Shown here: piece by piece, positions 19,543 to 23,690 of the stretch
Layout of the letters: each line of letters starts with the position of its first letter
Position numbering within the stretch: position 1 is the stretch's first letter
From: Bacteroidales bacterium
Lineage (GTDB): Bacteria > Bacteroidota > Bacteroidia > Bacteroidales > Muribaculaceae
Assembly (NCBI GenBank): GCA_014800685.1
Contig: JAAVFQ010000016.1
Location: 1 to 64,000, forward strand
DNA: 64,000 nt
Direction of reading: 5' to 3'
The notes under the pieces: generated by a model
Database searches by the model: none
Told to the model about the DNA's origin: nothing
What the model saw: the letters and a program-made list of their open reading frames with translations, nothing else
Made by a program: the position numbers and the translations under genes

Positions 19543-19574
19543 TTTGGATTTTTAAAAATTATGTTGTAACTTTG
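19543..19574 (+). promoter_or_regulatory. Consensus promoter of the structured RNA
   Basis: TTTG at 19543-19546, exactly 20 bases, then TAACTTTG at 19567-19574 match the Bacteroidetes consensus perfectly. The predicted start near 19581 falls at the base of the first hairpin of the RNA. Confidence 0.85.
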
Positions 19575-19580
19575 CACACA

Positions 19581-19872
19581 GATATGAGAACTAACGCCTC
19601 GTATCAGCTCGTAAGAGCATTAAATCAATTTGACTTTCAATTCCGGATAAATACGTGAGTACGTCATTCCGGATTGGGCTTCAATGCCCACTCATGGTAA
19701 ATGTTTGGTTGAATAATGGTACATCCATCTCTTTCCTGTTCTCCAAGGAAAGAGCAGTGTTGAAAAGAAAGCGAAAATATTTCTATCTTCCGCTTTGCTC
19801 TTGAAGAGCATCTTCTTTTCAGCAAAATTAAGCCGGTGATTTTTTCGAGAGAAAAAGACACCGGTTTGTTTT
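19581..19872 (+). ncRNA. Unidentified structured RNA, about 290 nt
   Basis: A perfect promoter and a perfect intrinsic terminator delimit this non-coding stretch. Hairpins in order: GATATGAG/CTCGTATC; GCTC-GTAA-GAGC; TCCGGA/TCCGGA with an inner ACGT/ACGT; TGGGC-TTCAAT-GCCCA; CTCTTTCC/GGAAAGAG; and a three-way-like region closed by GAAAAGA/TCTTTTC with inner AAGCG/CGCTT and GCTCT-TGA-AGAGC. It lacks the signature sequences I know for tmRNA, RNase P RNA or SRP RNA and is not the single long rod of 6S RNA. It ends about 90 bases before terL on the same strand. The function is unknown. Confidence 0.75.
19830..19871 (+). terminator. Intrinsic terminator of the structured RNA
   Basis: The stem AAGCCGGTG / CACCGGTTT encloses a further TTTTTC-GAGA-GAAAAA helix and is followed by GTTTTA. 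The ORF-track start of the next gene (19836) falls inside this hairpin, which argues against that start. Confidence 0.9.
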
Positions 19873-19964: not shown

Positions 19965-21407
19965 ATGACCGAAAATTTCAAAAATGACTTTCTCGGCTGG
20001 GCCGAGAAATGCGTCAGAATCACTGACAAACTTACCGGACAGACAGTCCCCTTCTGTCCTAATGCCCCACAGCGACGCGTTCTCGCCATAATGGAAGAGC
20101 AGCGCCACGCCGGCAAGCCCATTCGCATAATTCTCCTGAAGGCAAGGCAATGGGGTGGCTCCACGCTCGTCCAGGTTTATATGGCTTGGTTGCAGCTCGT
20201 ATGCCATAAAGGCTGGAACTCTGTGGTCTGTGCCCACGTCAAAGATGCCGCCGCAGGCATCAGAGGTATGTATTCCCGCCTCCTCAGGGAATATCCTGAA
20301 GCCCTTCGCACCGGAAAGGGGAAAGACTGGGTCCTGTCGCCATACGAAAAGAGCGCCTCGGTAGTAGAAATTGCGGCCCGCGACTGCAGAATCACGCTTG
20401 CCACTGCAGGCGCTCCTAATTCCGTAAGAGGCTCTAATTTCGCTATGGCTCATCTCTCGGAGGTAGCCTTCTGGGGAGATGGCGATAGCAACGCTGCCGA
20501 AGAGATAGTAAGGACTATATGCGGCTCTGTGCCCAGAGTGGCGGATTCTCTCATCGTAATGGAGTCTACGGCCAACGGGCGCGGTGGTTATTTCTATGAC
20601 GAATGGCAGAGAGCCGCCGCAGGAAAGAGCGACAAGACTCCCGTGTTCGTGCCTTGGCATGAAATAGAAATCTACAGGCGCGATGTGGCCGATGATGAGA
20701 GGCAAGACATCCTCGCCTCCCTTGACGACTATGAGAAGTCGCTCATTGAGGAGGGTGTGGCCCTCGAAAGCGTGGCTTGGTATCATGATAAGCGCAGGGA
20801 ATATCCCACTCATGAGGCCATGATGGCCGAATTTCCCTCCACAGCCGAAGAGGCATTTTCTGCGAGCGGACTCTTTGACGCCTTTTCCGAAGAGGAATTA
20901 CCCCTCATGACAGACACTCTGCCGGCACCCTCACGTCAATCTCACTACATCCTCTCGATAATAGTGAGCCCTGACATCGCTTCAAGAGCTATTTCCGCTC
21001 TGCGTCTGGATGGGGAGCGCCTCACTGCAATAGCAGAAATTGACTCCACCGGAACTTTCCCGGTGGTAGCTGCCAGATGTTTGCGATGGTGTCAGAAGTA
21101 TGATGCCTCTGTGATCATTGGTGTCGCCGAGGCTTCGCGTGGAGCAGCAGGCCACGCTAAATGGCTGATTGAAAAGCTTGAAGAGGAGGGCGTGGAAGTC
21201 TATCACAATGAGGAGGATGAGGCTCTCGTAGTCCTTGATGAGACGGAAGTGTGCATTCTCGTAGATAGGCACCGCGAACTTGTAGCCGACTCCCGCATCT
21301 TAGAAATGCAACCCGAAATGCCTGAGCAGTATAGAGCCTTCCGCACAGACTCTCCCGCAGCCTCTCCGGGAGTGTGTGCGAGGCTTCTTGCTTTAAAAAC
21401 GATGTAG
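19965..21407 (+). CDS. Phage-type terminase large subunit (TerL)
   Basis: TerL is the ATPase-nuclease motor that packages DNA into a capsid. From the ATG at 19965 (the listed upstream start lies inside a terminator) the protein has 480 residues. Walker A-like KARQWGGST is at 59-67, the Walker B position HLSEVAFW at 163-170 and coupling motif ESTANG at 200-205, and EFPSTAEEAFSASG ends the ATPase domain near 302. In the nuclease domain the usual G-x-D start reads IIVSPDIAS, so the first catalytic Asp is not in its canonical setting, while GVAEASRGAAGH keeps the acidic residue of motif II. No small terminase, integrase or lysis gene is adjacent. Flanks are an RNA gene and tRNA-Ser, and codon use is host-like. 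It probably acts with the capsid operon at 31-37 kb. Confidence 0.9.
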   Translation: MTENFKNDFLGWAEKCVRITDKLTGQTVPFCPNAPQRRVLAIMEEQRHAGKPIRIILLKARQWGGSTLVQVYMAWLQLVCHKGWNSVVCAHVKDAAAGIRGMYSRLLREYPEALRTGKGKDWVLSPYEKSASVVEIAARDCRITLATAGAPNSVRGSNFAMAHLSEVAFWGDGDSNAAEEIVRTICGSVPRVADSLIVMESTANGRGGYFYDEWQRAAAGKSDKTPVFVPWHEIEIYRRDVADDERQDILASLDDYEKSLIEEGVALESVAWYHDKRREYPTHEAMMAEFPSTAEEAFSASGLFDAFSEEELPLMTDTLPAPSRQSHYILSIIVSPDIASRAISALRLDGERLTAIAEIDSTGTFPVVAARCLRWCQKYDASVIIGVAEASRGAAGHAKWLIEKLEEEGVEVYHNEEDEALVVLDETEVCILVDRHRELVADSRILEMQPEMPEQYRAFRTDSPAASPGVCARLLALKTM

Positions 21408-23152: not shown

Positions 23153-23175
23153 ACATCAGAAATTTTTACTAAGTG

Positions 23176-23247
23176 TACCCCATAGCAGAGTCGAACTGCT
23201 CTTTAGAGAATGAAAATCTCTCGTCCTAACCGATAGACGAATGGGGC
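23176..23247 (-). tRNA. tRNA-Glu (TTC), copy 1
   Basis: The cloverleaf has acceptor GCCCCAT/ATGGGGT, anticodon loop TTTTCAT (anticodon TTC) and T arm AGTTCGACTCT. It is identical to the copy at 23619-23690, and rpsT lies between them. Confidence 0.97.
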
Positions 23248-23330: not shown

Positions 23331-23585
23331 TTACGCCAGCTTATTTATATGCTTAGCGAGACGGCTGCAGAGGTTAGACGCTTTGTTCTTTGAAATTACG
23401 TTCTTGCGTCCGAGGCGCTGAAGAAGGGCGCTTACCTTGTTGTATGCCTCAGTGGCTTCTCCCTTATTCTCCATTTTACGGATGCGACGCACTGCTGTTC
23501 TGGCTGTTTTGGCCCAGTAGCGGTTCTCGATACGTCTTTTCTCAGTCTGGCGTATTCTCTTTATAGATGATTTATGATTTGCCAT
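23331..23585 (-). CDS. rpsT: Small ribosomal subunit protein S20
   Basis: S20 binds the 5' domain of 16S rRNA. The 84-aa basic protein starts MANHKSSIKRIRQTEKRR and shows the helical Lys/Arg pattern with the C-terminal SNLCSRLAKHINKL. Length is typical. It lies between two identical tRNA-Glu genes on the same strand, probably one transcript from the promoter at 23729-23760. Confidence 0.97.
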   Translation of the reverse strand: MANHKSSIKRIRQTEKRRIENRYWAKTARTAVRRIRKMENKGEATEAYNKVSALLQRLGRKNVISKNKASNLCSRLAKHINKLA

Positions 23586-23618
23586 CTTGGTCTTTTTTTC
23601 TTTTCTTGTTTTTATTTG

Positions 23619-23690
23619 TACCCCATAGCAGAGTCGAACTGCTCTTTAGAGAATGAAAATCTCTCGTCCTAACCGATAGACGAATGGGGC
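23619..23690 (-). tRNA. tRNA-Glu (TTC), copy 2
   Basis: The sequence is identical to copy 1 across the whole tRNA. It is the first gene behind the promoter at 23729-23760 and lies 34 bases before the rpsT ATG. Confidence 0.97.

Follow-up and report, generated by a model that had tools for sequence, protein, structure and literature searches.

A genus-restricted family of structured small RNAs built around an invariant core in gut Muribaculaceae

The DNA analysed here (the window) is a 64,000-nucleotide stretch of a Bacteroidales contig assigned to the Muribaculaceae, a family of major mouse-gut bacteria. On its forward strand, a Bacteroidota-type promoter of the form TTTG-N20-TAACTTTG occupies positions 19543-19574; it had been called perfect in a previous sequence-only reading of the locus, and the match is indeed exact, with a spacer of 20 nucleotides. 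It is followed on the same strand by a predicted 5' hairpin (GATATGAG...CTCGTATC, 19581-19605), and transcription of this copy would start at about 19580-19582. At the other end, the terminator that the same reading had placed at the close of the gene was confirmed as an intrinsic terminator at 19830-19872 (forward strand), composed of the stem AAGCCGGTGATTTTTTC-GAGA-GAAAAAGACACCGGTTT and a GTTTT tract (U-rich in the RNA), the loop of which belongs to a GNGA class that recurs in the homologues described below. The predicted transcript spans about 19581-19872, that is, about 290 nucleotides. This segment is a gene of its own, bounded by promoter and terminator, and it is non-coding. The next open reading frame (19965-21407, forward strand) encodes a terminase-like protein that matches a PHROG terminase profile (E 1e-15) and has no Pfam match; this gene stands alone, with gapA on one side and a tRNA-Ser gene on the other. 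Further along, the reverse strand carries a pair of tRNA-Glu (TTC) genes (23175-23247 and 23618-23690) that score equally in Rfam, and a small open reading frame located between them (23331-23585) resembles ribosomal protein S20.

The predicted transcript is strongly structured. The z-score of its fold is -6.5 including the terminator and -5.4 without it, and none of 200 shuffles reached the stability of the native fold. In agreement with the hairpins previously listed for the locus, at least six local hairpins are predicted, including a GNRA-tetraloop hairpin (GCUC-GUAA-GAGC, 19607-19618). This is followed by hairpin P1 (19643-19672), in which a CCGGA/UCCGG outer stem and an internal loop carry an inner UAC-GUGA-GUA element with a GNGA loop, by hairpin A (GGGC-UUCAAU-GCCC, 19676-19689), by hairpin B (CUCUUUCC-loop-GGAAAGAG, 19729-19754) and by a long 3' stem-loop domain (19758-19824), all on the forward strand. 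The locus had also been judged unlike tmRNA, RNase P, SRP and 6S RNA by signature, a judgement borne out by covariance models: all Rfam models stay below their gathering scores in the region, matches at relaxed thresholds are at chance level, and ten homologous loci likewise lack an Rfam match.

Between hairpins A and B, immediately next to both, lies the element that defines the family and that the first reading had overlooked, a 20-nucleotide core (GTTTGGTTGAATAATGGTAC, or GUUUGGUUGAAUAAUGGUAC in the RNA) at 19703-19722 of the forward strand, for which a role as recognition element is proposed. When the whole segment was searched against related genomes, a run of 22-25 bases at 19701-19724 was found identical or nearly so in a dozen congeneric genomes, where it sits at unrelated chromosomal places. 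A degenerate pattern of the core (GTTTGGTTRAATAWTGGTAM) was then used for the searches. Among 84,980 species genomes it gave 36 matches, 33 of them in Muribaculaceae or Bacteroidales metagenome-assembled genomes and the other three at about chance expectation. Within the genus of the window the core was present in 39 of 111 genomes allowing at most one mismatch, as compared to 0 of 111 for a reversed-pattern control; one of the 39 matches (L167) looks like chance, and the homologues number 38-39. The core is normally found once per genome, including the genome of the window, the exception being the redundant contigs of assembly G776, and about two thirds of the genomes of the genus are devoid of the RNA. 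In the 39 aligned copies, the core is near-invariant over about 19 positions and conservation ends sharply at either edge; part of this invariance is produced by the pattern-based search itself, which does not account for the sharp edges or for the excess over the control across many genomes. Positions 13 (A/U) and 19 (C/A) are variable, and the core contains two UGGU blocks and an invariant heptamer, UUUGGUU. A hairpin formed by the core itself was discarded, as the variation at positions 13 and 19 would break pairs without compensation.

Outside the genus, matches to the core pattern were no more frequent than expected by chance. A sequence profile of the family (R1) gave at least 30 bits for true members, all of them in the same genus, and no more than 21.5 bits for the next best matches. 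The latter were considered as possible divergent members in other genera and taken as chance, with no family features in the 10 of 12 loci that were read. The gapA-adjacent regions of most core-less genomes also contain no comparable RNA among those listed.

Around the core, the family displays a recurrent order of elements: promoter, GNGA-loop hairpin, hairpin, core, hairpin and GNGA-loop terminator. A full promoter is present within 300 nucleotides upstream in 23 of 38 copies, as compared to 3% of control segments, and most copies end in strong terminators when tested against shuffles. By strict criteria, terminators with a GNGA loop were detected in 24 of 38 homologues, versus 1.3% of shuffles and 1.7% of segments from the window's own genome, in which only 5% of all strong terminators carry such a loop. 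In 17 of 34 homologues, as opposed to 2.5% of shuffles, another GNGA-loop hairpin precedes the core on its 5' side; the A+U-rich copy of the window fell below the filter applied in this count. Across 34 copies, the hairpins that flank the core are stronger than dinucleotide shuffles on both its 5' side (p = 0.0015) and its 3' side (p = 4e-8), and the copies as a whole fold more stably than the control segments next to them (mean z-score -2.32 versus -0.23, p = 3e-11). Nevertheless, the sequences of the flanking stems are unrelated from copy to copy, and the hairpins of the family are not alignable by sequence. The scaffold is therefore fast-changing and kept only as a shape, whereas the core is kept as a sequence. 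That the core is conserved in sequence and not in structure would also be expected of a site acting at the DNA level, for instance for a DNA-binding protein, with the transcript being secondary. This explanation is very improbable, given that the core lies on the same strand between promoter and GNGA terminator, within a recurrent hairpin architecture.

The genomic setting of the copies is varied. Besides that of the window, copies adjacent to gapA are found at L006, L036, L038, L054, L082, L083 and G021, about 10 of the 33-34 copies immediately precede metX-like genes, and the remaining ones are located elsewhere, for example by rubrerythrin, the downstream gene being often convergent. The metX group, in which the RNA terminator precedes the gene, might be taken to indicate that the RNA is a cis-acting leader or attenuator of the downstream gene, in the manner of a riboswitch. 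This is improbable: metX follows only a minority of the copies, many copies have a convergent gene after them, and a promoter-like box usually separates the RNA terminator from metX, although in L005, L028, L042 and L061 this box is so near the terminator that the two would overlap in the upstream half of the box. Moreover, no riboswitch of Rfam matches the RNA of the window or the ten homologous loci, which include two metX copies (L032 and L012). The differing placements of the RNA and the mostly intervening metX promoter exclude a leader as its general role, and the varied setting, together with the frequent convergence of the next gene, fits with an action in trans. The recurrence of gapA and metX as neighbours allows a guess that metabolism is what is regulated. 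In two loci (L009 and L068), the RNA terminator is immediately followed by short repeats in tandem that resemble ACTCCGATAGCC and GGAATTATCGGA.

The proximity of the terminase-like gene had led to the proposal that the RNA takes part in packaging or in the regulation of particle genes. A terminase-like gene does adjoin the RNA in the window and at L036 and L083, and one is located nearby at L068. However, the terminase-like gene stands by itself and was found in 32 of the 37 genomes of the genus that were sampled, irrespective of the RNA, the two are often on different contigs, and in most genomes the RNA is elsewhere. In addition, neither a search for the core in 2.9 million viral contigs nor one for the RNA in 50,697 phage records gave a match. 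A packaging or particle-gene RNA tied to the adjacent terminase is consequently extremely unlikely, and the adjacency in the window probably reflects a shared gapA neighbourhood and not a functional link. Of that proposal, what stands is an independent structured non-coding RNA, as supported by promoters, terminators, fold and homologues. As for the terminase-like gene itself, two further families of the order also have it as a single gene in the chromosome, and it has possibly been domesticated.

Taken together, these data indicate that the window harbours a putative regulatory RNA, about 290 nucleotides long and predicted to be transcribed independently, that belongs to a new small RNA family of one Muribaculaceae genus. 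The existence of a previously uncatalogued, genus-restricted family is well supported, whereas its mechanism is inferred. As the core is conserved as sequence and the scaffold only as shape, the most economical reading, with a probability of roughly 60%, is that of a trans-acting RNA in which the core serves as recognition element. A portion of the core would most likely pair with one or more RNA targets, and the hairpins may serve to expose or stabilise the core or to offer it to an RNA-binding protein.

The search for such targets gave null results. In a target prediction on 966 ORF starts from 1.2 Mb (about half) of the 2.1 Mb genome of the window, the core behaved as shuffled cores did; 8- and 9-mers complementary to the core were not enriched at ORF starts of the same 1.2 Mb, and near-complements of the core in 16 genomes included none that recurred. 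A tracrRNA-like function was rejected, since a search of 16 genomes for sequences complementary to the core, with as many as three mismatches allowed, revealed no CRISPR repeat array. In the genome of the window, the commonest terminator-like loop is AACCAAA, which complements the core heptamer. It is carried by an end hairpin (GAGGCTGTCTAAC-AACCAAA-GTTAGGCAGTCTC) that is present in multiple copies and coincides with many contig breaks of this genome (e.g., L186, L187 and L205), and which probably belongs to the end of an insertion sequence. This hairpin was dismissed as a target because it occurs in 7 of 39 carriers of the RNA and 13 of 72 non-carriers, the figures for the exact AACCAAA loop being 2 of 39 and 4 of 72, respectively. 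The idea that the core is a specially open region was likewise dropped, as it is predicted to be no more open than the remainder of the RNA or shuffled cores (unpairedness 0.42, 0.40 and 0.42).

Because the target searches were null and the core is not unusually open, a protein partner has to be regarded as a serious rival to base pairing. According to this possibility, the core, in which the UGGU block occurs twice, and the GNGA hairpins would form a ribonucleoprotein or titrate a candidate RNA-binding protein (e.g., of the RRM type) without pairing to any mRNA. The preservation of GNGA loops at two places is consistent with such a role, as is the second GTTTGGTT half-motif found upstream in L035, L037 and L078, where it is accompanied by a GNGA hairpin of its own. 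In Bacteroides, moreover, the protein RbpB has been reported to bind single-stranded regions of small RNAs (PMC11697453). On the other hand, an invariant run of 19 nucleotides exceeds the usual length of a protein site, and a purely protein-binding RNA is possible but rather doubtful.

Among known systems, the trans-acting reading finds its closest design in the FopS/GibS small RNAs, with which the family shares a Bacteroidales host, a sigma-ABfr-type promoter, a conserved recognition stretch, a diverging remainder and an intrinsic terminator (PMC11697453). The FopS RNAs of Bacteroides thetaiotaomicron, which have been deposited in Rfam, are about 65-70 nucleotides long, exist in 14 copies per genome and repress susC mRNAs by means of a seed at their 5' end (PMC11697453). 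By contrast, the family described here is single-copy per genome and not a set of paralogues, and the window RNA, with its length of about 290 nucleotides and at least six hairpins, has an internal core instead of a 5' seed directly before the terminator. With regard to the complementarity to susC-like start regions that characterises FopS, the core performed no better than shuffled cores in the 1.2 of 2.1 Mb covered. Assignment to the FopS/GibS family therefore fails on copy number, length and core position, with no susC signal in the portion covered. SAM-II and other riboswitches of met genes resemble the family in that some copies lie upstream of metX, but differ in that the RNA has its own promoter and terminator, has no Rfam match and in most copies does not precede metX. 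The likeness to 6S RNA, tmRNA, RNase P RNA and SRP RNA is limited to being independently transcribed structured RNAs, transcription being here predicted, whereas this family is patchy within one genus, lacks an Rfam match and has no signature in common with them.

In the literature searched, no description of small RNAs in Muribaculaceae was found. The family supplies a defined RNA with a fixed, putative recognition core that is open to experimental testing, and it provides a clear-cut example of a core that stays unchanged while its scaffold turns over to an extreme degree. One putative recognition word of 19-20 nucleotides has been frozen, and the rest has been rewritten between species except for the shape and the GNGA loops. 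Tentatively, such an RNA might be part of an uncharacterised Muribaculaceae ribonucleoprotein and not an ordinary antisense small RNA. In one subgroup (the L035, L037 and L078 copies mentioned above), the additional half-core (GTTTGGTTA) is located 65-100 nucleotides upstream of the core with its GNGA hairpin before it, an arrangement that suggests a duplication of the recognition unit.
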